A DNA stretch of 64,000 nt, from positions 1,412,603-1,476,602 of the forward strand of contig AP017647.1 of assembly GCA_003584625.1 (NCBI GenBank), written 5' to 3'. Of the stretch, positions 34,387-50,024 are shown piece after piece. Made by a program: the position numbers and the translations under genes. The stretch's first letter is position 1. The number at the start of each line of letters is the position of its first letter. The stretch is from Methanothermobacter sp. MT-2. Lineage in GTDB: Archaea; Methanobacteriota; Methanobacteria; Methanobacteriales; DSM-23052. The notes below the pieces were generated by a model. That model searched no databases and was not told where the DNA came from. It saw only the letters and a list, made by a program, of their open reading frames with translations.

Positions 34387-35031
34387 ATGAAGATCATAAA
34401 AATAGAAAATCAACACTTAAAAAAGCATTTAAAAGAAGCAAAAGCTATTCTAAAAAGTGGAGGTATCATATTATACCCTACTGACACCCTATATGGTCTG
34501 GGAGTTGACGCATTTAATGAAAAGGCTATAAAAAGACTTTACAGGTTAAAGAGGAGACCTCTAAATAAGCCAATGTCAATATGCTTACATGACACGAAAT
34601 GGATTAAAAGAGTCGCCCACCCCAACCCCAAAATCGAAAAGATAATAGATATGATCCTACCAGGACCATTCACCATCATACTCAAAAAAAAGAACACAAT
34701 CCCCTCCATTTTAACCAGTGGCAGTGAAAAAATTGGTATAAGGATCCCAGACAACACCATTTCCAGAGAACTTGCAAGTGAATTCCCAATAACAACTACA
34801 AGTGCAAATATATCTGGGATGAAAACCCATAATAACATCAAGGACATAATCCAACAAATAGGAGAAGTAGACCTAGCCCTCGACGCGGGTCCGCTCAAAA
34901 AAAGAAAACCATCCACTGTAGTAGATCTCACAAAAGATCCCCCAAAAATTTTAAGAAAAGGAGCAGGACATGAAAAGATCAAAAAATTAATATTAAAAGG
35001 TTATGAATATGAGACTCCTCTCAAACATTAA
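34387..35031 (+). CDS. Threonylcarbamoyl-AMP synthase (TsaC/Sua5 family)
   Basis: A 214-residue YrdC-fold protein. [18 protein letters not shown] (about residues 25-42), [11 protein letters not shown] (about 55-65), PGPFTIIL and TTTSANISG are typical nucleotide- and threonine-binding motifs. It makes threonylcarbamoyl-AMP for t6A37 in ANN-decoding tRNAs, later used by the KEOPS complex. It lacks the Sua5 C-terminal domain. Its 3' end overlaps radB by 29 bases. Confidence 0.9.
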
Positions 35032-35716
35032 AAAACCAGCCAGAATACCAACAGGCTGCTCCCTAGATAAAATACTAGGAGGGGGCGTGGAAAAAAGAAA
35101 CCTAACACAATTCTATGGACCTCCAGGATCCGGGAAGACGAACATAGCCATAAAACTAGCCGTAGAAACAGCGAAAAACCATGGGAAAGTGATATTCATA
35201 GATACTGAAGGTGGAATGTCAATAGAAAGAATAAAACAAGTAGCAGACAAAGACTTCGACAAAGTAGCCAAAAAAATAATATTATTCGAACCAGGAACAT
35301 TCCAAGAACAAAGCGAAACAATAAGAAAAATATGGGCACTCCTACAAAGACACCCAAAAGAATTCGACCTCATAATCCTAGACTCTGCAGTAGCATTATA
35401 CAGATTAAAAGACGGGAACTCCCCAAGAATACACAGCGAACTAGGCAACCAAATGGCCCTACTTTTAAGGATGGCGAAAAAATATGACGTCGCAGTTGTA
35501 ATCACAAACCAAATATATTCACTATTCGATGCTGAAGGCAGAAACGCCATCGAACCAGTAGGAGGCACCATACTCAAATACTGGAGCAAAATAATCATCG
35601 AACTACAAAAAGGAGATGTCATCGGAGAACGCCGCGCAATCCTCAAAAGGCATAAAAACAAACAAGAAGGACTCGAAACAACATTCAGAATAGTTGAAAA
35701 CGGTCTTGAAGGATAA
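35003..35716 (+). CDS. radB: DNA repair and recombination protein RadB
   Basis: A 237-residue RecA-fold ATPase, shorter than RadA because it lacks the N-terminal HhH domain. Walker A is GPPGSGKTN (about residues 37-45), Walker B is [10 protein letters not shown] (about 119-128). RadB assists RadA-mediated recombination. It starts within the end of the TsaC/Sua5 gene, at ATG 35003 or 35009. Confidence 0.9.
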
Positions 35717-35796
35717 ACCATCTGAAGAAAATCATATACTCAGATGCCATGAAAACTTTTATTAACCCTCTAAACTAATAATAGTCTAAAAAAATC

Positions 35797-35862
35797 ATGA
35801 CAGATTTTCTTTCCAATGAAGAGTATAGGAGCAAGAACATGATCTTCTCCAATGTCACATAA
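35797..35862 (+). other. Possible 21-codon ORF before the aminotransferase gene
   Basis: ATG 35797 reads MTDFLSNEEYRSKNMIFSNV-T and stops at TAA 35860-35862. A TATA-like TTTTATTAA (about 35757-35765) could place a start near the ATG, so it could be leaderless. It has no ribosome-binding site and may be chance. Confidence 0.2.
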
Positions 35863-35879
35863 AAAACATAGTGATGAGC

Positions 35880-37034
35880 ATGATATCACCCAAAAAATAT
35901 CACAGAACAGCTAAAATGCCACCTAATGATTTTAAAAATGTTAATGAATTTTTTAATCATGTTTTCCAGGACAAAAAAATGATATGGATGGGTCAGAATA
36001 CAAACCATCTCAACGATCACAAGGAAATAAAAGAATCAATGATAGAATTCATAAAAACCAACGAATATTGTAAATACCCCCCACCAGAAGGATTCCCAGA
36101 ACTCCAAGAACTAATAATAAAAGACCTAGGATTAAAAAACGGCTTCGAATCCCTAATAACAGCTGGGGGGACAGAATCCCTCCATATATGCATGCAAAGC
36201 ATCATAAAAGTAGGTGATGGGATCATAACATGCGACCCAGGATACCAAATAATCGAAAACTTCGCCAGAAGATTCGGGGGAAAAGTAAAAAGCGTGGAAA
36301 TATACAACAATGAATGCTCCTATAAACTCACACCAAAACTCGTAGAAGATAACATAGACAAAAAGACAAAGATAATATCACTCATAGACCCCCTAAACCC
36401 CCTAGGATCATCCTATACAAAAGACGAGATAAAAGAATTCGCTGAAATAGCCGAAGAAAAAAACCTATACCTCCTACATGATATAACATACAGAGATTTC
36501 GCAAGAAAACACTACCTAGCAGCTAAATACGCCCCTGAAAGAACATTAACAATCTATAGTTTTTCAAAGATCTGTGGAATGGCCGGTTTAAGGATCGGAA
36601 GCGTTATAACAACACCAGAAATGATGAAATCCCTAAAAGATTTCATGATAAACGATCTTGGAACAAATGTCCTATCACAAGTCGGCGCGATAACAGCCCT
36701 AAAATCAAAGAAAAAATGGATCAAGAAAGTGCGTGAACGCACATTCAAAAACCAGAAGATCATAAAAAGGGCTGTTGACCAAGTAGAAGGTACATTCATA
36801 CCAGTATACCCATCACAGGCCAACATGATGGCCATAGACATATACAATACAGGCGTGGACCCAGTTGATCTCACAAACTATCTTCTAAAAAGAAAAATTT
36901 TCGTAAGACAAGGATCATACACCAGCAGAACCTATGGTAACAGATACATCAGATTAAGCTTCTCAATACCAAAAGAACAGGTCCAAATATTCGCAGAAAA
37001 CTTCATAGACTTAATGGGATTCCTAAGAACCTAA
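35880..37034 (+). CDS. PLP-dependent aminotransferase, class I/II
   Basis: A 384-residue fold-type I enzyme. PLP Lys lies in YSFSKICGMAGLRIG (about residues 224-238); YPPPEGFPELQELI (about 63-76), AGGTESLHICMQ and IDPLNPLGSSY fit cofactor and substrate binding, and RLSF near the end contains the carboxylate-binding Arg. It resembles aspartate/histidinol-phosphate aminotransferases, but the substrate is not readable. ATG 35880 is chosen since GTGAT upstream can act as ribosome-binding site. The structured RNA copy A lies downstream. Confidence 0.82.
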   Translation: MISPKKYHRTAKMPPNDFKNVNEFFNHVFQDKKMIWMGQNTNHLNDHKEIKESMIEFIKTNEYCKYPPPEGFPELQELIIKDLGLKNGFESLITAGGTESLHICMQSIIKVGDGIITCDPGYQIIENFARRFGGKVKSVEIYNNECSYKLTPKLVEDNIDKKTKIISLIDPLNPLGSSYTKDEIKEFAEIAEEKNLYLLHDITYRDFARKHYLAAKYAPERTLTIYSFSKICGMAGLRIGSVITTPEMMKSLKDFMINDLGTNVLSQVGAITALKSKKKWIKKVRERTFKNQKIIKRAVDQVEGTFIPVYPSQANMMAIDIYNTGVDPVDLTNYLLKRKIFVRQGSYTSRTYGNRYIRLSFSIPKEQVQIFAENFIDLMGFLRT

Positions 37035-37144
37035 AATTAGGAGAGTTCCAGAAAAATTTAATTATTTTTCACATCTATATCCTTATTTTGCTTGTCAACC
37101 CCCAAAAATAGAGGATACACATGGGGGAAACTTGGATAGTTAAA

Positions 37145-37345
37145 TTTAAATATCACATTTTAGATAGATTCCTTTTGTAGCTCTGCTCCCTAACGAGAGT
37201 AGCATAGGATACAAGGGGTTCCGAGCCAAGAGGGGAGTATGATTCCATGGGCGTAAAGCCATGGTGGTGAACTCCTCAACTCTGTAAGATTCCATGTTGG
37301 AAACCTCACGTGTAAGCATGGGGGGAGACCAACCCCTCATAGAGG
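37145..37345 (+). ncRNA. Structured RNA family, copy A
   Basis: TATA box TTTAAATA (37145-37152) implies a start near 37172. Elements shared with copies B and C: CCCTAA-GAGAGTAGCAT (from 37188), GGGGAGTATGA (37232-37242), and TTCCATGTTGG (37290-37300). Predicted helices: P1 AGGGGTT (37214-37220)/AACCCCT (37331-37337); P2 GAGGGG (37230-37235)/CTCCTC (37273-37278) with a GU pair; P2a CCATGG/CCATGG (37245-37250/37259-37264); P3 TTCC/GGAA (37290-37293/37299-37302). No open frame fits. It precedes the sequon-rich small protein gene. I do not recognise the family. Confidence 0.7.
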
Positions 37346-37411
37346 TCCATTATATTTTTCAACCAATTAATGAAAATTTATAGGATGAAAAGGACAAAGG
37401 GAGGTGTTTAC

Positions 37412-37717
37412 ATGGATAAATTAACAATTATAATCCTACTAGCTATAATAGCAGTTAGTGGGGTTGCAGCAGGTTACCATTATTACGGGGGAGAAAAACT
37501 ACAATCACAGACACAGTTAAAGATCCAAAATCAAACGAAACTTCAAAATCAGACACAAATAAGAAACCAGACACGATACATGAACCAAAGTTGTCTCTCA
37601 GTTGACCAGTTAAACAGCGCAAATGGGAATCTAATACAATATCAAGATCAGAACATGTTCAGTGGCGGGTCACTACATCAAGAACAAAATAGGAACAGAA
37701 TCAGGAATAAAACATAG
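37412..37717 (+). CDS. Small membrane-anchored, glycosylation-sequon-rich protein
   Basis: A 101-residue protein from ATG 37412 (GGAGGTG is 6-12 bases upstream; a start at 37370 would lack a site). Residues about 3-22 (KLTIIILLAIIAVSGVAAGY) are a signal-anchor helix. The exposed remainder has NQT three times, one NQS and one NKT, the N-x-S/T sites used by archaeal oligosaccharyltransferase, within a Gln/Asn-rich, near-repeat sequence. I do not recognise a family. Probably an extracellular glycoprotein-like peptide. Preceded by RNA copy A. Confidence 0.65.
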   Translation: MDKLTIIILLAIIAVSGVAAGYHYYGGEKLQSQTQLKIQNQTKLQNQTQIRNQTRYMNQSCLSVDQLNSANGNLIQYQDQNMFSGGSLHQEQNRNRIRNKT

Positions 37718-37812
37718 AAAGTAACATTCGATGGAAGACTTTTGGCGTCATCAGCCCAAGAAGAGAAATTCTGGGGGAAAGTTCTTATAAATTAAATTAT
37801 GATCCCCTCAGA

Positions 37813-39594
37813 TTATTCAATTTTAAGGTAATAATATTCTCCGATTTCTTTTTGTTTACGATCAAGGAAACTATTGATTTTGTTCACCCTGGGCCTTCTT
37901 GTTTCTTTATCTCTTCTGAATGTTATCCCCACTTGGGATAAGAACTTGTTCATGGCTCTTCGAAGTTCTGTCGGGCTTGTAGCATATCCTTCTATACCTG
38001 GCATGCCATAAAATACCATGGCTCTATCTGATATATAATCAAGGAATATTATATCATGGTCTATTATGATGGCAGAAGAGTCCCTACCTTCTATTATTTT
38101 TCTCATGGCTTTAGCTGTCATCAATCTTTGTTCAACATCTAGGAATGCTGTGGGTTCATCGAAAACGTAAAGATCGGCTTCCATTGAAAGTGTGGTGGCG
38201 ATGGATAGTCTTTGAAGTTCGCCTCCGCTGAGCTCTTCAACCTTTTTATCCTCTAATTCTTCGAGGGAAAATGGCCTTGCAATTTCGCTTTTAAATATTT
38301 TAGTCCCGTATCCTTGTGCATTTAAATGTAGGAATTCTCTAACAGTGCCCTTGAAATTGGATTTTAGGTATTGTGGTTTATAGGCTACTTTGAGTTTCTT
38401 TTTAATTTTGCCATTATCTGGTTTTTCTTCTCCGGCTAGGATTTTTGCAAAGGTTGTTTTACCTATACCATTTGGTCCGAATGCGGTTACTATCTCCTTT
38501 AGGTATACTTTACCTTCTTCGACGTTTAATTGGAAACCTTTATACTTTTTGGTTAATTTTGTGTATTCTGTGAGTGTTTCGCCCTCCTCTTCTGGGGTGG
38601 GTGGTTTTATTTTAAATTGGATTTCGCCTTTTCTAAATCTGACATTTTCTTCCCTTAAGAAACCTTTTATGTAGGCATTTATACCGACCCTCACACCTCT
38701 TCTCTTTGATACGACTCCATAAGCCCCCGGCTTACCATAGAGCACGTGAACGTAATCTGAGAGCGCGTCAAGGGCTGCTAGGTCATGTTCTATCACCATA
38801 ACTGCTTTGCCCTCTTCCTGGAGAGATCTTATCACTTTAACGGCATTTAGTCTCTGTTTAACATCTAACCAAGATGTTGGCTCATCAAAATAATAGAAAT
38901 CAGCATCTCTAAGGGCTGCTGCGGCTATAGCTATGCTCTGGAGTTCTCCCCCGCTTAAATTTTTAATATCCCTTTTTAGTATGGGTTGGAGTTCAAGTGT
39001 TTCAATTATAAAATCTAATTTGCCACGTTCATCAATCCTTGAAAGGAGTTCATACACTTTACCCTTCACATATTCAGGGATGAGGTCTATTATCTGGGGT
39101 TTATGAACTGCCTTTAATTTACCTGCTGAAAGTTTCTTAAAATATTCCTGTAACTGCGAGCCCCTGAAAAAGCGTGTTATCTCATCCCATCCTGGTGGGT
39201 TTTCATAATCTCCAAGATTAGGTTTTAATTCACCTGACAAAATACGGCTTATAGTCGATTTACCTATCCCATTGGGTCCTATAAGTCCAACCACGTCACC
39301 TTGACTGATAACTGGTAATCCGAAAAGTTCAAACATGTTCTCCCCATAACGATGAACAGGATCCTCAAGGGCCTCTGGTAGATTTATTATACTTATAGCA
39401 TTAAAAGGGCACCTATTAGTACATATACCGCAACCAGAACATAATTCTTCTGATATCACCGGCTTTTTCGTTTTTTCGTTAACGGTTATCGTGTCTTCAC
39501 CCATTCTGACACCTGGACAATATTCAATACATAGATAATTACATTTTTTTGGCTGGCACCGGTCATGATCCAAAATAGCAATCCTAGTCATCAA
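37813..39594 (-). CDS. ABCE1/RLI ribosome recycling ATPase
   Basis: A 593-residue protein. An N-terminal di-cluster ferredoxin part ([15 protein letters not shown] and [12 protein letters not shown]) is followed by two ABC domains. NBD1: [16 protein letters not shown] and [13 protein letters not shown]2: [18 protein letters not shown] and [10 protein letters not shown]. It splits 70S ribosomes after termination. The promoter is on the minus strand at about 39683-39693 (CTTTAAATACC). Confidence 0.95.
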
Positions 39595-39787
39595 ATCACC
39601 CTTTAGGAAAACAGTGAAAAGGTTAAACTTTAAATTGGCTCCGGTGAATTACCCTTCTTATTCCGGAAGGTGGACCCCCCCAAAGGTATTTAAAGGTATA
39701 GGCTCCCAGATTTAAGATACTATTTCCTTCTAAAAAAAATTTCATTCCCATAAAAAAAGGAAAATAAATATATAAAAATTGATATAA

Positions 39788-40000
39788 TTAAAGTTCTTTC
39801 TTTTTAAATGCCAAATCTATGTCCTCTGCTTTAACGGTCTTTCTACCAGCGTGTTTTGCTAGTTTAACAGCTTCTTCTGCTATTTCTTCGCCTATTTCTT
39901 CTAGGGCTTTTGCTAGTGCTTCCCTTGCATCATCACTTATTCTTTGCGCACCGGCATTTTTTATGATTCTTCCAACTGGTGCTATTGGTAATTCACCCAT
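39788..40000 (-). CDS. Archaeal histone
   Basis: A 70-residue histone-fold protein ([20 protein letters not shown], then helices ending in [14 protein letters not shown]), similar to HMfA/HMtA/HMtB. It wraps DNA as dimers and longer stacks. GAGGTGAT precedes the ATG, and ATTTAAATAC (about 40035-40044, minus strand) is a promoter. It is transcribed away from pth2. A T-run near 39753-39759 on the minus strand ends it. Confidence 0.95.
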
Positions 40001-40233
40001 AATATCACCTCATTTTTATCTTCAAATCTCTAGTATTTAAATTTATCGTTTTTTTCCCCATTTTTGTGACCAATATCCCATTTGTAAATATGAGAACCAC
40101 ACTAAAGACAACAATAGAACTTTGAAAAATTTTTCGTACCATCAAGATACTCCCATAAAGTTTCACACAATATAATAACCTATATACCCCATACCATAAT
40201 AAGATAAAAAAAACTAAAGGGTGAGACCCCCAG

Positions 40234-40572
40234 ATGAAACAAGCCATTATAATCCGCACCGACCTTAAAATGGGAAAAGGTAAACTCGCAGCCCAAGCCT
40301 GCCACGCATCCATCGAATCATACAAAAGAACACCTAAAGAGAAAATAAAAAAATGGGAAAAAGAAGGTTCAAAAAAGATAATCCTAAAAGTGAAAAACCT
40401 AGAAGAACTCATAAAAGTATACGAAACAGCAAAAAAGAAAAAAATCCCCCACTACCTTGTACGCGATGCAGGACACACACAACTACCCCCAGGTACAATA
40501 ACAGCCCTCGGAATAGGCCCAGACAACGATAAAAAAATAGATAAAATAACAGGCCACCTAAAACTATTATAA
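40234..40572 (+). CDS. pth2: Peptidyl-tRNA hydrolase Pth2
   Basis: A 112-residue Pth2-type enzyme. [20 protein letters not shown] (residues 2-21), HASIES (about 25-30) and [12 protein letters not shown] (about 82-93) are the catalytic-site segments. It frees tRNAs from stalled peptidyl-tRNA. First in a likely operon with the mfnE-like gene, the zinc-ribbon protein and EF-1beta. Confidence 0.95.
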
Positions 40573-40643
40573 AACCCAAAAAAATAACATAGGGACCTTT
40601 AAAAAATGATTTTCATCAACACAACACCAAGGAAGTGCCAATA

Positions 40644-41288
40644 ATGGAATGGACAGTTAAAATAGGAGGCAGTTTATTCCCCCACCACGCAAAAAAACTC
40701 CTAGAAAACCTATCAAACGAAGACGTCATCATCATACCTGGAGGTGGAGAATTCGCAGATAAAATAAGAGAATACGACAAAAAAATCGGACTTTCAGACA
40801 CTGCTAACCACGAAGCGGCAATACTATCAATGGATATAATGGGCATACTCCTAGCAGACCTTGTGAAAAGGGCTGAAACAACCCACACAATCAAAGGCGC
40901 CCGAAAAATAAAAAAAGATGGTAAAATCCCCATCCTACTACCATCAAGAATACTACATTACCTAGACCCCCTCAAACACTCATGGAAAGTAACATCAGAC
41001 TCCATCGCATTTTACATATCAAAACTCATAAATGCAAAACTATTAATAGCAACAGACGTAGATGGTATATACACAACAAAACCCACAAAAAAAGGGGCTA
41101 AACTTATAAATGAAATAACTGCTAAAAAGTTACTAACTTTTGGCGAAACCGCAGTGGATGAAGAACTACCAAAACTACTACTAAAATACAAATCTGATTG
41201 TTACATAGCCAATGGAAAGCATCCACAACGGATTCTTTCTATCATAAGATCCACTGACACCATACATACAAAGATAAGAGGTGATTAA
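40644..41288 (+). CDS. mfnE: Amino-acid-kinase family protein, MfnE-like (methanofuran synthesis)
   Basis: A 214-residue AAK-fold kinase: VKIGGSLFP (about residues 5-13), IIPGGGEFAD (about 34-43) and LIATDVDGIYT (about 135-145). MfnE phosphorylates the aminomethylfuran phosphate to the diphosphate in methanofuran synthesis; this small form and its presence in a methanogen support the call, though a general carbamate/glutamate kinase cannot be ruled out. ATG 40644 has GGAAGTG in place; a longer GTG start at 40635 lies within that site. Confidence 0.72.
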   Translation: MEWTVKIGGSLFPHHAKKLLENLSNEDVIIIPGGGEFADKIREYDKKIGLSDTANHEAAILSMDIMGILLADLVKRAETTHTIKGARKIKKDGKIPILLPSRILHYLDPLKHSWKVTSDSIAFYISKLINAKLLIATDVDGIYTTKPTKKGAKLINEITAKKLLTFGETAVDEELPKLLLKYKSDCYIANGKHPQRILSIIRSTDTIHTKIRGD

Positions 41289-41450
41289 ATGGCCAAAATA
41301 AGATGCACATCATGCAAACAAGAAATACCACCAGTTGAAAGTTATGTCAAATTCGAATGCCCATTCTGCGAAGAAATAATATACAGATGCGAAAAATGCC
41401 GAACCTTCGGCCACCCATACAAGTCTAAATGCGGATTCGAAGGCCCGTAA
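41289..41450 (+). CDS. Small zinc-ribbon protein (HVO_2753-like)
   Basis: A 53-residue protein with four CxxC-like pairs: CTSCK, CPFCEE, CEKC and a final Cys in SKCGFEGP. It matches the archaeal HVO_2753-type small zinc-finger proteins, function unknown. The ATG follows the mfnE stop directly. It sits between mfnE and EF-1beta, an arrangement that supports joint expression. Too short for most gene finders. Confidence 0.8.
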
Positions 41451-41472
41451 ATTTAACATTGGAGGATTTAAT

Positions 41473-41742
41473 ATGGGAGAAGTTCTAGCCACAATCAAGA
41501 TAATGCCAGAAAGTCCAGAAATAGACATGTCAAAACTAAAAAATGAAATCCAATCATCCATCCCCAAAAGCGCCGAACTATATAAAATAGAAGAGGAACC
41601 AGTAGCATTTGGCCTCATAGCCCTTAAAATAATGGTTATTGTAGATGACGCGGCCGGGGGAACAGAAAACGTCGAAAAAAACTTATCAAAAATTGAAGGT
41701 GTAAGCAATATCGAAGTGACTGATCTTCGACGTTTAATCTAA
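41473..41742 (+). CDS. ef1b: Elongation factor 1-beta (aEF-1B)
   Basis: An 89-residue protein with the guanine-exchange fold for EF-1alpha: VLATIKIMPESPEIDM (residues 4-19), ELYKIEEEPVAFGLIALKIM (about 36-55) and IVDDAAGGTENVE (about 57-69). GGAGGAT precedes the ATG. A decayed second copy exists at 43548-43767 beyond the MFS gene, so only this copy is functional. Confidence 0.93.
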   Translation: MGEVLATIKIMPESPEIDMSKLKNEIQSSIPKSAELYKIEEEPVAFGLIALKIMVIVDDAAGGTENVEKNLSKIEGVSNIEVTDLRRLI

Positions 41743-41804
41743 ACATCCGCTATCCTATTTTAAAAAACATTCTTATTTATATCATGTGTGGGGGGGTTAA
41801 TAAT

Positions 41805-43340
41805 ATGCCTAGTGGCCAGTATAAATGGGGGGCAGTTTTAGTTGCCTGTTTGGCAATTTTCATCATAGTTTTAGATACATCAGCAATGAATGTGGCAATA
41901 ACCACACTAGTTGTGGAGCTAAATACTACATTGTCAACAATTCAGTCCATAATCGCTTTATATGCATTAATAATAGCCTCATTCATGTTATTAGGGAGCA
42001 AACTTCAAGATATCCTTGGCAGAAAAAAGACATTTTTAGTGGGATTGATCATTTATGCTTGTGGAACGAGCATCGCTACTTTAAGTATCAATGCAGGGAT
42101 GCTCATGATAGGATGGGCCATTTTAGAGGGTGTTGGCGCGGCTTTGATGTTCCCAGCGACCACAACCCTTGTGGGCGCTAGTTATGAGGGTGAAGATAAA
42201 GTTACTGCTTTTGGAATTTGGGGTGGTATAGCAGCCATGGGCGCGGCCATAGGCCCTATAATAGGGGGAATTTTCACGACATACTTTACTTGGAGGCTAG
42301 TGTTTGCATTTGAACTCATTTTTGTAGCATTAATTTTAATTTTCAAGGACTATTTAACGGAATCTGAACCAACTTTGAAATGGAAGGATTTAGACATATT
42401 AGGCGCCATTATTTCCACAGTATCCCTAGTATTAATTGTTATGGGGATTTTACTCCTTTCAAAACCGCGAAACTGGGAATATGTCCCGGTTTTACTAGTC
42501 TCTGGTTCTATTCTCTTTGTTGTCTTTTTATGGTGGCAGAGAAGAAGGCTTAACCAAGGTTTAGAACCGTTATCTGATGTATCTCTCTTTAGGAATCGTC
42601 TGTTTGGATTAGGTACTATTAATTCCATAATACAACAAATACCCTTAGCAGGTTTTCTTTTCATCATACCAGTTTTCCTGCAACAGATTACCAAACTCAA
42701 TGCATTTGATACTGGGCTGACTCTTCTACCAGCATCCATCTCTATCCTCATGTTTTCAATTTTAGGGGCGAGATTCTCAACAATTTTAGATTCCAAACAT
42801 ATTATGATGATTGGTTTTCTTATTTCTGCACTGGGAACATTCCTACTGGGAGGGGTGTTTAACTTAAACACTCAAATGATGGACATTATACCATCGACTA
42901 TTGTCTTTGGTGTGGGAATCGGCCTTTTACTTTCACAATTAACCAACCTTACCATGTCAGCTGTCAGGAGCGAACAAGAAACAGATGCCTCAAGTTTACT
43001 TAATTCATTTAAAAATCTAGGTTATTCACTAGGAACGGCTTTGATAGGAGTTTTACTTTTAATAGGAATTTTCAATGGACTTACAACTGGAATAGAAGCA
43101 ACTGGCCAGACTGGAAACATGACTACACAGGAAATTCGGGATAGTCTTTTTGAATATGTAGAAAAGATGCAGACTGGACCACCTCCACAAATATCGCCAC
43201 AAATACAACCTTATGCAACTGAAATTGTGGATCTATCTATTAGTTCTGCAATGAGGCAAACATTTAACGTATTGTCTTTGATTCTCCTCTTAGGATTCAT
43301 ACTAAGCATTTTCTTACCAAGAAAATCTAAATTGGGATGA
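41805..43340 (+). CDS. MFS drug-exporter-like transporter (EmrB/DHA2 type)
   Basis: A 511-residue membrane protein with about 14 helices, the DHA2/EmrB size. The early motif LDTSAMNVAI (about 23-32) is that family's motif D1, and LGSKLQDILGRKKTF (about 65-79) is MFS motif A. Substrate unknown. ATG 41805 follows a G7-TT site. The gene lies between an intact EF-1beta gene and its broken copy, indicating insertion with duplication, possibly by horizontal transfer (inference). Confidence 0.85.
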   Translation: MPSGQYKWGAVLVACLAIFIIVLDTSAMNVAITTLVVELNTTLSTIQSIIALYALIIASFMLLGSKLQDILGRKKTFLVGLIIYACGTSIATLSINAGMLMIGWAILEGVGAALMFPATTTLVGASYEGEDKVTAFGIWGGIAAMGAAIGPIIGGIFTTYFTWRLVFAFELIFVALILIFKDYLTESEPTLKWKDLDILGAIISTVSLVLIVMGILLLSKPRNWEYVPVLLVSGSILFVVFLWWQRRRLNQGLEPLSDVSLFRNRLFGLGTINSIIQQIPLAGFLFIIPVFLQQITKLNAFDTGLTLLPASISILMFSILGARFSTILDSKHIMMIGFLISALGTFLLGGVFNLNTQMMDIIPSTIVFGVGIGLLLSQLTNLTMSAVRSEQETDASSLLNSFKNLGYSLGTALIGVLLLIGIFNGLTTGIEATGQTGNMTTQEIRDSLFEYVEKMQTGPPPQISPQIQPYATEIVDLSISSAMRQTFNVLSLILLLGFILSIFLPRKSKLG

Positions 43341-43547
43341 AGAATAAAAAAGAAGGAAATAAATAGTACGTCAATAACCCCTTTTTTTATATTGACAATC
43401 TTTAATGGTATTTCTGTGAGATTTTTTTATCGGAGGTTTTTTTATCCTGCGAAAAACGTCACCAGAGAAATTCCCAATCCATGATATTCGAAAACCACAT
43501 AAAATATAAATAATAATAATAATGTTGAATATAATATTATGTCTGGG
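43341..43547 (+). other. Spacer after the MFS gene with T-tracts
   Basis: Three plus-strand T-runs (about 43382-43389, 43423-43429 and 43438-43444) probably end the MFS transcript. The A/T-rich remainder contains no supported gene. The EF-1beta duplicate begins at its 3' end. Confidence 0.4.
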
Positions 43548-43767
43548 AGTTGATATGGGGAAAGTTCTCGCCACAATCAAGATAATGCCAGAAACCCCCC
43601 CAAAATAGGAACGCCAAAACTAAAAAATAGAAGAGGAGCTTGTAACATTCGGCCTCATAGCCCTCAATGTAATGGTTGTCGTAGATGACGCGGCCGGGGG
43701 AACAGAAAACATTGAAAGCTTATCAAAAATTGAAGTTGTGAAATGGCTAATCTTCAATGTTGAAAAG
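43548..43767 (+). pseudogene. Decayed duplicate of EF-1beta
   Basis: From the ribosome-binding site and ATG 43555 the sequence tracks the intact gene at 41460-41742: GTTCTCGCCACAATCAAGAT, then TAG at 43606 after an indel in a C7 run. About 60 bases equivalent to the middle are missing, and GATGACGCGGCCGGGGGAAC and AAAATTGAAG resume. The remains run into the TctA-like gene in frame. It cannot make EF-1beta. Confidence 0.88.
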
Positions 43768-43770
43768 TTG

Positions 43771-45012
43771 GTGGTTGAAATTTTCGATTTCATCCTCGCC
43801 TGCTTTCTAGGGATTATCTGCGGTACAATAACAGGTATTATACCTGGTATCCATGTTAATACCGTAGGTGCATTCGTATTCGCTGCCACTCCCTTCCTTC
43901 TCAAGTTTTTCTCCCCTGAATTTTTAGCTGTTTTCCTGCTTTCAATGTCTATTGCCCATGCACTCCTAGAATTCATACCATCCATGCTCCTAGGCGTACC
44001 AGATGAATCAACAGCATTATCCATCCTTCCAGGCCATAGGATGATATTGGAAGGGCAAGGTAGAAAGGCCATAAGACTAACAGCCATTGGAGGGCTTGGA
44101 GGCATAATATTCACAGTATTATCCCTACCCTTATCCATAATTTTCCTACCTCCAACATATAATCTGATAAGACCATATATAGGACTATTACTCCTTATAG
44201 TGTCAATTTACCTTATAATAAGCTTGAATAAGAATTTAGAGGCTACTATATGGTCCCTTGTAATATTCATCCTTTCAGGGATCCTAGGATGGGTTATGTT
44301 AAATACTCCGCTTTCATCAAATATCTCTCTATTATGTACCTTCAGCGGCCTATTTGGTGTGAGCACATTAATTCACAGCCTAGGTAAACACTCGATTTTA
44401 CCCAGCCAATATACTGTGAAGGAAATTAGAATCGATACTAGGATTATAAGAGGAATCCTTGGAGGAGGAGTTGCAGGAACCCTATTAGGGTTTCTCCCAG
44501 GTTTTGGACCGGCGCAGGGCAGTATACTGGCCCAGGAAATCAGTGGTGGGAGTGATGATAGGATAGAGAACCTTTTAACATCTCTCAGCGCCTTGAACAC
44601 TTCAGATGCTCTTTTTTCACTTATGACAATATATCTCATGGGAAATGCTCGCAGTGGCATAGCAGTCTACATTTTGAAGATAATAGAAAATTTCAGTTTA
44701 AATTATCTCATATTTTTTAGTTTTGCATCTTTATTATCAGTTGCAGCATCTTTTATCCTGTGCATAAAATTGGGGGATTTTCTGGTTGATCGTCTACAAT
44801 ACCTAGATTACAATAAGCTTTCCAAACTGGTAATATTTTTTATAAGCTGCCTAGTGGTGATATTCTCCCTATGGGAAAATGCACCAGTCCATTTCATCTT
44901 ACTTGCCTATGTAACATCCATCGCCGTTGGTTTGATACCACATTATATTGGTGTGAGTAAATCTTATTTGATGGGAGTCCTTATAATACCCGCCCTGGCC
45001 ATCTATCTTTAG
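43771..45012 (+). CDS. TctA-family (DUF112) membrane protein
   Basis: About 413 residues with roughly 10-12 membrane helices and the signature GTITGIIPGIHVNTVG (about residues 15-30), plus LLGFLPGFGPAQGSILAQEI, matching the TctA/COG1784 group. Relatives form the large subunit of tricarboxylate transporters; the archaeal ones often lack TctB/TctC, so the substrate is unknown. A longer frame from 43672 begins with EF-1beta pseudogene sequence (MVVVDDAAGGTEN), so I start at GTG 43771; the ribosome-binding site is weak. Confidence 0.72.
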   Translation: MVEIFDFILACFLGIICGTITGIIPGIHVNTVGAFVFAATPFLLKFFSPEFLAVFLLSMSIAHALLEFIPSMLLGVPDESTALSILPGHRMILEGQGRKAIRLTAIGGLGGIIFTVLSLPLSIIFLPPTYNLIRPYIGLLLLIVSIYLIISLNKNLEATIWSLVIFILSGILGWVMLNTPLSSNISLLCTFSGLFGVSTLIHSLGKHSILPSQYTVKEIRIDTRIIRGILGGGVAGTLLGFLPGFGPAQGSILAQEISGGSDDRIENLLTSLSALNTSDALFSLMTIYLMGNARSGIAVYILKIIENFSLNYLIFFSFASLLSVAASFILCIKLGDFLVDRLQYLDYNKLSKLVIFFISCLVVIFSLWENAPVHFILLAYVTSIAVGLIPHYIGVSKSYLMGVLIIPALAIYL

Positions 45013-45962
45013 CAGATTAAAATTATTTCCTTGGCAAGCTTTCTAGAAGTTTTAACGAAAGGTGTGGTATCAACATTTGGGAATGGATCTATGATACAAA
45101 GATCATATTTTTCATCAATGAGTGAAGGCAGATCCCTTATATCTTCATTGTACACCTCAAATTTCTCATCTGCAAGTTTAAATCCATTCACTTCCAAATT
45201 TATAATGGTTGTTTTTATGCTTTCAGTCCATATATCATTGAATATTACCTTATCGGCGCCTGTGAAGAGTGAGAATAATCCGAGGGTTCCAGGGCCGCAT
45301 GTAGCATCTATAACCTTAAATGGACCTTTAAATTTTCTCAGGATATTATAGAGATTCATGATCTTTGAATATGAAGATCCTAGGGATTCGATGTGCATCC
45401 TACTCTGTCTTTTATAAATGCATAAGGCCCCCCTTGGACTTTTTATGATGTCGCAGCGCATATCACATCCGGCTAATTTCTCATATACGATTGGTTTATG
45501 ATCTGAGTCAAGCATGCCTACTGTCTTCCCTGGATCGCCTTTGATAACCCCTTTAACTTCTGGCACTTCCCCGATTATCTGTTTAGCTGTTTTTTTATCC
45601 AGTTTATCAGATAATATTAATAGGGATTTTGATGGTAGAAATGGTGCTCTTGAAAGAGGATAGCCTATGGTCATGAGTGGAGTGCCAACGTTTCTTAGAC
45701 TTGATTCTTTATCTAGTAGTCCTTTGTCAACCATTATACTCAGAATATGCCCCATTGTGGAGTCAAGGTGCCTTTTACCACACTCACATCTACCCCAGTC
45801 TCTATCAATGGATTTCAAGTTTAATTGATCCCCTAGTGGGGTTCTTTTATCTATGTGAGGATCATGGCAATTTTTACATCCATTATAAAAATATTGGATC
45901 TTTTCTAACAAAGATCGCCTATCTATTATGCACTTTTCCCCACATTCACACCTTAATCCCAT
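45009..45962 (-). CDS. SAM-dependent methyltransferase-like protein with N-terminal Cys pairs
   Basis: About 317 residues. N-terminal CECGEKC, CKNC and CECG pairs form zinc-ribbon-like segments. KVIDATCGPGTLGLFSLF (about residues 219-236) is the SAM-binding motif I, and CIIDPFPN near 298 resembles motif IV. The fold hints at RNA or protein methylation (a Trm5-like likeness), but the target is not readable. ATG 45962 (MGLRCEC) is chosen; an earlier ATG at 45986 overlaps the TATA box of the divergent gene. Confidence 0.6.
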   Translation of the reverse strand: MGLRCECGEKCIIDRRSLLEKIQYFYNGCKNCHDPHIDKRTPLGDQLNLKSIDRDWGRCECGKRHLDSTMGHILSIMVDKGLLDKESSLRNVGTPLMTIGYPLSRAPFLPSKSLLILSDKLDKKTAKQIIGEVPEVKGVIKGDPGKTVGMLDSDHKPIVYEKLAGCDMRCDIIKSPRGALCIYKRQSRMHIESLGSSYSKIMNLYNILRKFKGPFKVIDATCGPGTLGLFSLFTGADKVIFNDIWTESIKTTIINLEVNGFKLADEKFEVYNEDIRDLPSLIDEKYDLCIIDPFPNVDTTPFVKTSRKLAKEIILIC

Positions 45963-45997
45963 ATAAAATTTAAATATAATGTTCATTATATTAAAAG

Positions 45998-47563
45998 ATG
46001 ATTCTCATGAAGGATAAAAGGAAAGCCATCCTAAAGGAAATCCTGGGAGATTTCGCTTCTGAAAACTCTGAATCTGAGGGAAGACTTGAATCAAAGGATG
46101 AGAGCAGTTTTGATATATCCAAGATAATTAAGAAAAGACCCCCAAAACTTGGAGCAGATGTTGAAGAAGTCGAAATCGTCGAAGAAGAACTAATACCACT
46201 ATACAGGGTTTCCATCCCCAGATTCACTGAAAAAGAAAGGGAACTTATAAACGAGATAAGGGCAAAGCTCGTTGAAGCCGCTGTAAGTGCGGGTGGCGAA
46301 TTTAAAGTTGATAAAAAAACCCTTATGAAAGAGGTTAAAGATTTCCTCAGAATAAAAGGAGTTCGCGATATTGACAGACTCGCCAAGCAAATCATACAAG
46401 AAATGCTAGGCTATGGGGAAATCGACCCCCTCATAAGAGATGATAACCTCGAAGAAATAATGATAATCGGCGTGAAAAAACCAGTTTTTGTCTACCACAG
46501 AGAAAAAGGCATGATGATCACAAACCTCGTATTCGATGACGCGAACAACATAAAAGCCCTAATCGATTTAATCGCAAGACAGGTAGGCCGCCGCATAGAC
46601 CAACAAACACCCATACTCGACGCAAGATTACCAGACGGATCAAGGGTCAACGCAACCATACCCCCAGTCTCCCCAGATGGCCCCACCCTAACAGTGCGTA
46701 AATTCAGAAAAGATCCCTACACCATCATAGATCTTATAAATTTCAAGACAATGTCATCTTACCTTGCAGCCTTCCTTTGGGTGTGTACAGATGGCCTCGG
46801 AGCCAAACCATGCAACGCAATAATCGCCGGTGGTACAAGCTCTGGTAAAACAACAACCTTGAATACAATAGCAGCATTCATACCACCCCGCGAACGTGTT
46901 ATCACAATCGAAGACACCCTAGAACTCCAACTCCCACACCCACATATTCTAAGGTTGGAAACAAGACCCCCAAACATAGAGGGAAAAGGCGAAATTGACA
47001 TGGACACCCTAGTCAAAAACTCCCTACGTCAAAGACCAGACCGGATAATAGTAGGGGAAGTGAGGGGGCCAGAAGCCATAACATTATTCACAGCCTTGAA
47101 CACTGGACATTCAGGGTTCGGCACATTACACTCCAACACCGCACGTGAAACAATCACAAGACTTACAAACCGTCCAATGAATGTGCCAAATATTATGATA
47201 CCCGCACTAGACTTCATTATAATGCAGAATAGGATGTACAGTTCATCTGGCCATTCAATAAGACGCATAACCGAAGTAGCCGAAGTTGTGGGGATGGAAG
47301 AAGACAAAGTCCAATTAAACAGGATATTTGAATGGGATAACGTCACCGACAAAGTGGAATACGTGGGTATAGCAAGCCAAACACTAAGAGAAATAGCAGA
47401 AATGCGAGGTATAAACATAACAGAGATAGAAGAAGAAATCGAGAAAAGAAGACTAGTCCTAGAGTACATGGCCGACGAAAACATAAGATCTATAGATGAA
47501 GTAGCTAAATATATACATAGTTATTATAAGAATCCTGAGGAAATCTTGGAGCAAATACTCTAA
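45998..47563 (+). CDS. Type II/IV secretion-like ATPase (TadA/CpaF-like)
   Basis: A 521-residue secretion ATPase. [17 protein letters not shown] (about residues 274-290) is Walker [16 protein letters not shown] (about 304-318) holds the Asp box; [15 protein letters not shown] (about 346-360) contains the Walker B and His-box area. Such proteins power type IV pilus or archaellum assembly. TATA TTTAAATATA lies about 25-30 bases before ATG 45998, so the gene may be leaderless; an ATG at 46007 is an alternative. No pilin genes are near, only tadC. Confidence 0.85.
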
Positions 47564-47596
47564 AGTCCCCCGAATATAAAAGAGGGGATGTCCACA

Positions 47597-48655
47597 ATGG
47601 TTTTAAAAAAAATTTTTGAAAAACTCGGCAGCCTAACAATAGATGCGGGTAAAAAGGTGGAAGAGGGGGTTAAAGTCCCCGCCACGAAACTAAACATTGT
47701 CAAGCCTTCATTCACTAGTAAAATGCCATCAATCCCTGGTAAAATTGATTTTAGGAGGACTATAAAGCGTAGAAGCACATCCGTGATCTTGGAACGGATG
47801 AAGATGACCCCAGAGGAGATAGAAATATTCAAGGATCTTATCGAAGCCGATAAACGTCGCGAGGAAAAGGAAAAAGAAAGTGAAGAGAAGTATATGGAAG
47901 CTTCACTCGAGGAAATATTAAAGGAGAGAGAGAAAAGGAGACTCGAACCTAAACTGGTAATGACATTAGGAGGCATTTCCGGCTTCTTACTATTATTGAT
48001 AACAGTTATATTAGGTTTTGGCTTAGATATTGGGCTTATATTAATGTTCTCAGTAATTTCCCTATCTATACTCTTAATGTTCGCGCCAGAATTACAAAAG
48101 GGGAGAAGATCTTCAGAAGCGGCACGTCAACTACCATTTGCTCTGAGGCAAATGGCAACAGAACTTAGAGCAGGACTAGGACTCCATGATACCATGCGCT
48201 CAGTAGCAATGTCAGGGTATGGGGCGTTATCCCAAGAATTCGCAAGGACTCTGGAAGAAATAAGGTATGGTGAAACCACAGAAAATGCTTTAAAGGAAAT
48301 GTGTAACCGTGTGAACTCAGAAGGTTTGGATAGGGCTATTTATCAGATTACAAGGACTCTAGAGAGTGGGGGGGACCTAGCTAAAACCCTTAACATTATA
48401 GCAGAGGATGTGGCCTATGAGATGAGAATGAAACTTAGAGATTATTCCCAGAAGCTTAACTCTTTTACCATGATATACATGTTCATCGCCATCCTAGGAC
48501 CAGTTATATTCCTAGTAATGTTACTTGCAGCCACCACAGTCATGGAAAGGTCAGTTTTACCCCCAATTGCCATACTGTTATTATATCTATTATTATTCCC
48601 AGCGATAGTAGGGTTCATGGCCTTCATGATAAAAAGACTTGAACCAAAATTATAA
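47597..48655 (+). CDS. Type II secretion F-domain membrane protein (TadC-like)
   Basis: About 352 residues. The N-terminal ~115 are charged and soluble; membrane helices occur near 120-165 and 290-345, flanking the T2SSF domain (LPFALRQMATELRAGLGLHD). It is the platform protein for the ATPase encoded just upstream. ATG 47597 is preferred because GAGGGGATG serves as its site. The two genes form a minimal assembly module without obvious pilins. Confidence 0.82.
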   Translation: MVLKKIFEKLGSLTIDAGKKVEEGVKVPATKLNIVKPSFTSKMPSIPGKIDFRRTIKRRSTSVILERMKMTPEEIEIFKDLIEADKRREEKEKESEEKYMEASLEEILKEREKRRLEPKLVMTLGGISGFLLLLITVILGFGLDIGLILMFSVISLSILLMFAPELQKGRRSSEAARQLPFALRQMATELRAGLGLHDTMRSVAMSGYGALSQEFARTLEEIRYGETTENALKEMCNRVNSEGLDRAIYQITRTLESGGDLAKTLNIIAEDVAYEMRMKLRDYSQKLNSFTMIYMFIAILGPVIFLVMLLAATTVMERSVLPPIAILLLYLLLFPAIVGFMAFMIKRLEPKL

Positions 48656-48770
48656 ATTACGACCCAAAGGGAATTCCAAGTGGACTTGTAGCCCAATAAG
48701 CTTCTCTTTTCCTTTTATAAATTGGGTGCAGGTATATAATCTAAAATATGGATAACCGTTCAGTTAATAA
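48656..48770 (+). other. Spacer between tadC and the mer promoter
   Basis: No gene is supported. GTATATAATC (about 48731-48740) is TATA-like and may be an extra promoter element. Otherwise A/T-rich. Confidence 0.3.

Positions 48771-50024
<1,254 letters not shown>

Follow-up and report, generated by a model that had tools for sequence, protein, structure and literature searches.

Likely horizontal gain of an MFS transporter gene, with duplication of EF-1beta, in Methanothermobacter sp. MT-2

In the genome of Methanothermobacter sp. MT-2, a gene for an MFS transporter lies between an intact EF-1beta gene and a second, defective copy of EF-1beta, which raises the question of how the transporter came to be there and which of the two copies occupies the native site. 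The window analyzed here, meaning the whole stretch of 64,000 nucleotides, corresponds to G000:C1:1412603-1476602 in a 1.52 Mb single-contig genome, and a literature search found no paper on this locus. The gene order is ABCE1 (minus strand), pth2, an amino-acid kinase gene, a Zn-ribbon gene, EF-1beta copy 1, the MFS gene, EF-1beta copy 2, tctA, an ORF on the minus strand, and a gene for a T2SSE-type ATPase; there is no Rfam match in 35000-50000. The features at the junction, in window coordinates, are the following.

41289..41450, plus strand: Zn-ribbon gene (HVO_2753-like), the native upstream flank (Pfam PF07754, NCBIfam NF011481; collinear in congeners)
41473..41742, plus strand: EF-1beta copy 1, intact (TIGR00489; protein identity to congeners 85-89%)
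41805..43340, plus strand: MFS transporter gene, DHA2/EmrB type, probably acquired horizontally (Pfam MFS_1, E 2e-42; absent in congeners; tree conflict)
43341..43487, no strand: intergenic stretch after the MFS gene (single-copy; the congener spacers have no recognizable homology to it)
43488..43554, plus strand: native promoter-like region and leader of EF-1beta, kept before copy 2 (matches the spacer directly 5' of the congener EF-1beta)
43555..43764, plus strand: EF-1beta copy 2, a pseudogene (alignment to copy 1, disabling changes, substitution spectrum)
43771..45012, plus strand: tctA-like gene, with the start taken from the congeners (Pfam TctA, E 3e-57; frame fused upstream with the pseudogene)

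The relatives of this strain show the locus without the transporter. Collinearity with the window extends to both sides of the MFS gene in two congeners (G001 and G002), with ~81-87% DNA identity over 36000-41450 and 43621-50000, and a third (G003), represented by a shorter contig, agrees with them. In all three congeners, EF-1beta adjoins tctA across a gap of 7-8 bases, with neither an MFS gene nor a duplicate in between, and in the sister family the gap is 9-97 bases. The window-type MFS is absent from the three congeners, whose best matches, at 27-28% identity, are distant paralogs, and a second EF-1beta match was found in no other genome searched. Taken together, the EF-1beta-tctA joins of the congeners, the collinear flanks, and the absence of the MFS gene indicate that the insertion is a derived feature of this lineage. 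The preliminary description had proposed that the MFS gene entered between EF-1beta and the TctA-like gene with a duplication, and both these empty sites and the MFS phylogeny support such an entry. It is very likely that a transferred MFS gene was inserted, and EF-1beta duplicated, in this lineage.

Copy 1 is a full-length aEF-1beta, scoring 114.7 bits against TIGR00489 (cut-off 61.2) over positions 1-88 of 88 and also matching Pfam EF1_GNE, which bears out the earlier reading of 41473-41742 as an intact gene. Copy 2 aligns with copy 1 (41450-41737 to 43528-43764) with 195 of 227 aligned positions identical (86%) and a score of 232.8, against a best score of 30.8 in 200 shuffles, and the genome contains no further match to copy 2 besides copy 1. 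It is disabled by an in-frame TAG at 43606-43608, a 44-base internal deletion, smaller deletions, and the loss of its stop codon; its homology to EF-1beta, these disabling changes, and the disappearance of codon-position constraint identify it as a pseudogene. The start at ATG 43555, the RBS-like stretch, the stop at 43606, and the internal deletion that had been described for this copy are all present, but it is not truncated as had been stated, with the RBS-like stretch and ATG retained at one end and the 3' end of the gene at the other.

The polarity of substitutions was determined at 202 sites for which the alignment covers both copies as well as the three congeners. At 8 of these sites, copies 1 and 2 have a derived state in common against all congeners, while the changes that followed the duplication fall mostly on copy 2 (17 of 20, with 3 of 20 on copy 1; p=0.003). 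By codon position, the changes are distributed 7/7/3 on copy 2, 1/0/2 on copy 1, and 6/1/26 in the variation among congeners, and the spectrum of copy 2 differs from that of the congeners (Fisher test, p=5e-5). It is clear from the shared derived sites and the change spectra that the duplication took place in this lineage, that copy 1 is functional, and that copy 2 has decayed. The two copies are sisters from one duplication within this lineage, and the decay of copy 2 is neutral. An origin of copy 1 in another genus was rejected, as the two copies are sisters. The copies differ at 27 of the 202 sites, and the event is therefore neither recent nor an artefact of assembly; the decaying duplicate dates it after the species split.

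The surroundings of the two copies bear on which one is in its native place. In the congeners, the spacer before EF-1beta is 207-244 bases long and contains a TATA-like box, and a similar box precedes EF-1beta in the sister family. Copy 2 carries the box at the matching place, around 43500-43515, with scores of 47, 39, and 36 against best shuffles of 38, 37, and 36, a similarity in AT-rich sequence that lies modestly above the shuffles, and its join to tctA is also the native one. Copy 1, by comparison, starts 22 bases past the Zn-ribbon stop behind a short leader that resembles the end of the native leader, and the 5' portion of the spacer seen in congeners cannot be recognized anywhere in the window. 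Divergence from the congener spacers has left the joint within 43341-43487 unreadable, and a scan with bacterial promoter and terminator models, which are unsuited to an archaeon, gave results near chance. With the native 5' region and the tctA join both at copy 2, the extra block would be EF-1beta plus MFS; that is, an intact EF-1beta gene and the MFS gene were probably added between the Zn-ribbon gene and the native promoter, with some of the spacer lost. The earlier statement that the MFS gene duplicated its target is apt in the sense of a gene-length duplication by recombination. It does not hold in the sense of a transposon-type target-site duplication, and it is the pseudogene, not the intact copy, that has the native surroundings.

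The lost stop codon of copy 2 also has a consequence for annotation. The 3' two-thirds of the pseudogene reads through into tctA in the same frame; this frame is open from 43624, ATG 43672 is its first start codon, and the gene finder gives tctA 446 aa from this ATG (ORF 43624-45012). The congeners indicate a start near GTG 43771, and automatic calling would add a piece of EF-1beta to TctA. Two separate observations concern tctA elsewhere. A TctA-like fragment at G000:C1:1365768-1365935 (minus strand), 55% identical to TctA residues 300-358 and with an internal stop, is possibly a second tctA remnant, and in several other genera (L076, L079, L082, L087) the distance from EF-1beta to tctA is ~0.7-2 kb, with other material at the junction.

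Ancestrally, the order was Zn-ribbon, promoter, EF-1beta, and tctA. Once this lineage had separated from the three congeners sampled here, it very likely gained a DHA2-type MFS gene from another group within Methanobacteriales, and EF-1beta was doubled. The DNA that came in, with EF-1beta ahead of MFS, may have paired with the resident Zn-ribbon/EF-1beta region, its far end then being joined without homology in a one-sided recombination. The outcome would be EF-1beta and MFS upstream, with the resident EF-1beta, its promoter, and its tctA join downstream, and the downstream copy would thereby be free to decay. The 5' region of copy 2 has probably been kept because it is still driving tctA, a promoter role that we infer for it. 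Copy 1 and its upstream flank are compatible with a one-sided homologous anchor, and the duplicated flank and the downstream shift of the resident gene fit one-sided recombination as proposed elsewhere (PMC5361080). A donor with EF-1beta followed by MFS was seen in none of the genomes searched, and we hold this route tentatively, giving it a little less than an even chance.

Two other routes lead to the same arrangement. A Campbell-type single crossover within EF-1beta, with circular DNA that bore the MFS gene together with a segment containing EF-1beta, would in one step and with no recombinase place two EF-1beta copies around the new DNA. However, copy 1 would later have to lose the promoter and spacer upstream of it by deletion, and the insert has no plasmid-like genes, which makes this route possible but somewhat unlikely. 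Alternatively, a tandem duplication of EF-1beta may have come first and the MFS gene may then have entered harmlessly between the copies, consistent with the copies being sisters within this lineage and with a redundant copy being a tolerant target. This requires two events in place of one, no relative was found to have a second EF-1beta but lack the MFS gene, and we regard it as rather doubtful. The one-sided route may also be carried further, to a capture of the foreign gene without any recombinase, through homology at one side: the EF-1beta that arrived would now supply the protein, and the resident that it displaced would serve tctA as promoter and leader, with the EF-1beta remnant possibly translated in TctA. 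In this extended form it is unlikely.

As for the transporter itself, its start is likelier at ATG 41805 than at ATG 41784, with an RBS-like GGGGGGG at 41790-41796 and homologs beginning near that residue. Its best NCBIfam match is to the DHA2 family drug efflux permeases (TIGR00711, efflux_EmrB; residues 19-511, E 7e-56), yet at 189.9 it falls short of the curated cut-off, 230.2; the protein is still a member of MFS_1 and would presumably act in efflux. Its GC3 of 0.33 is similar to that of the neighbouring genes, and composition therefore gives no hint of a foreign origin. Matches in phage records are distant (25-27% identity among the matches listed), and a scan of genome contigs gave one MFS homolog, in a MAG titled Euryarchaeota archaeon K_DeepCast_300m.

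The source of the gene is indicated by phylogeny. In a species tree built from ABCE1 and the T2SSE-type ATPase, the strain's own family (f1) joins f2 (100/99), and G150, G043, G034, G148, and G149 form a separate clade. In the MFS tree, the window's gene instead groups with G150, G043a, G148, and G034 (82/91), and in a smaller-set tree with G043a, G148, and G034 (93/89); G008, the sole f2 genome with a close MFS homolog, is placed elsewhere, at 59%. Forcing the six nearest MFS rows from another family (f3) together without the window's gene was rejected (AU p=0.0006), and forcing the four nearest rows alone was not (p=0.086). The MFS identity of the window's gene to G150, G043, and G034 is 75.5, 77.1, and 71.8%, and the corresponding ABCE1 identities are 73.8, 72.0, and 72.8%; among these three genomes, MFS identity is 72-77% and ABCE1 identity 84-89%. 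As the MFS is about as similar as the highly conserved ABCE1 when the same genomes are compared, it is too similar for vertical descent. The gene is thus absent from close relatives and its tree conflicts with the species tree, as expected of horizontal acquisition, and it was probably transferred within Methanobacteriales from another group belonging to another family. Homologs of the subfamily are scattered through the order, as might follow from vertical inheritance with loss in the congeners, but the tree conflict, the ABCE1-like identity, and the clean EF-1beta-tctA joins in three congeners and the sister family make that history highly improbable. In G150, G148, G034, and G043 (L118, L119, L120, L121; three genera), the MFS gene shares two neighbours, a 108-aa protein and a ~280-aa membrane-like protein or region, and these partner genes do not lie beside the window's MFS.

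A transposon or integrative element carrying the MFS gene, with terminal repeats or attachment sites, is scarcely credible: a 23-base inverted pair (83%; 41769-41791 and 43495-43517) might suggest its ends, but the right arm is native promoter sequence also present in congeners, no credible element ends were found around the insert, no tRNA lies nearer than one 30 kb away, and copy 2, in contrast to an att fragment, covers the full length of the gene. The preliminary description had seen no transposase or integrase, and a scan of the proteins encoded nearby, covering the main ORFs between 35003 and 51415, likewise gave none. A repeat or insertion-sequence remnant 3' of the MFS gene was also considered and rejected, as the stretch is single-copy in the genome.

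The event is a horizontal acquisition of an ordinary kind that left a decaying duplicate, and its value lies in being a readable record of horizontal gain in a small methanogen genome, complete with the empty site in close relatives and a probable group of origin. It resembles integrative elements that duplicate part of their target gene, in that the inserted DNA is flanked by a gene and its second copy, but differs from them in that no integrase was found and the second copy is gene-length, not an end fragment. Another parallel may be the orphan immunity gene arrays of Vibrio, for which homology-facilitated illegitimate recombination has been proposed (PMC5361080). Unlike in those arrays, the displaced copy here is a decayed housekeeping gene, and the limits of the anchor and the non-homologous joint are unreadable; as in them, a new gene would have arrived with an upstream homologous anchor, and the resident gene would have been moved downstream and retained.
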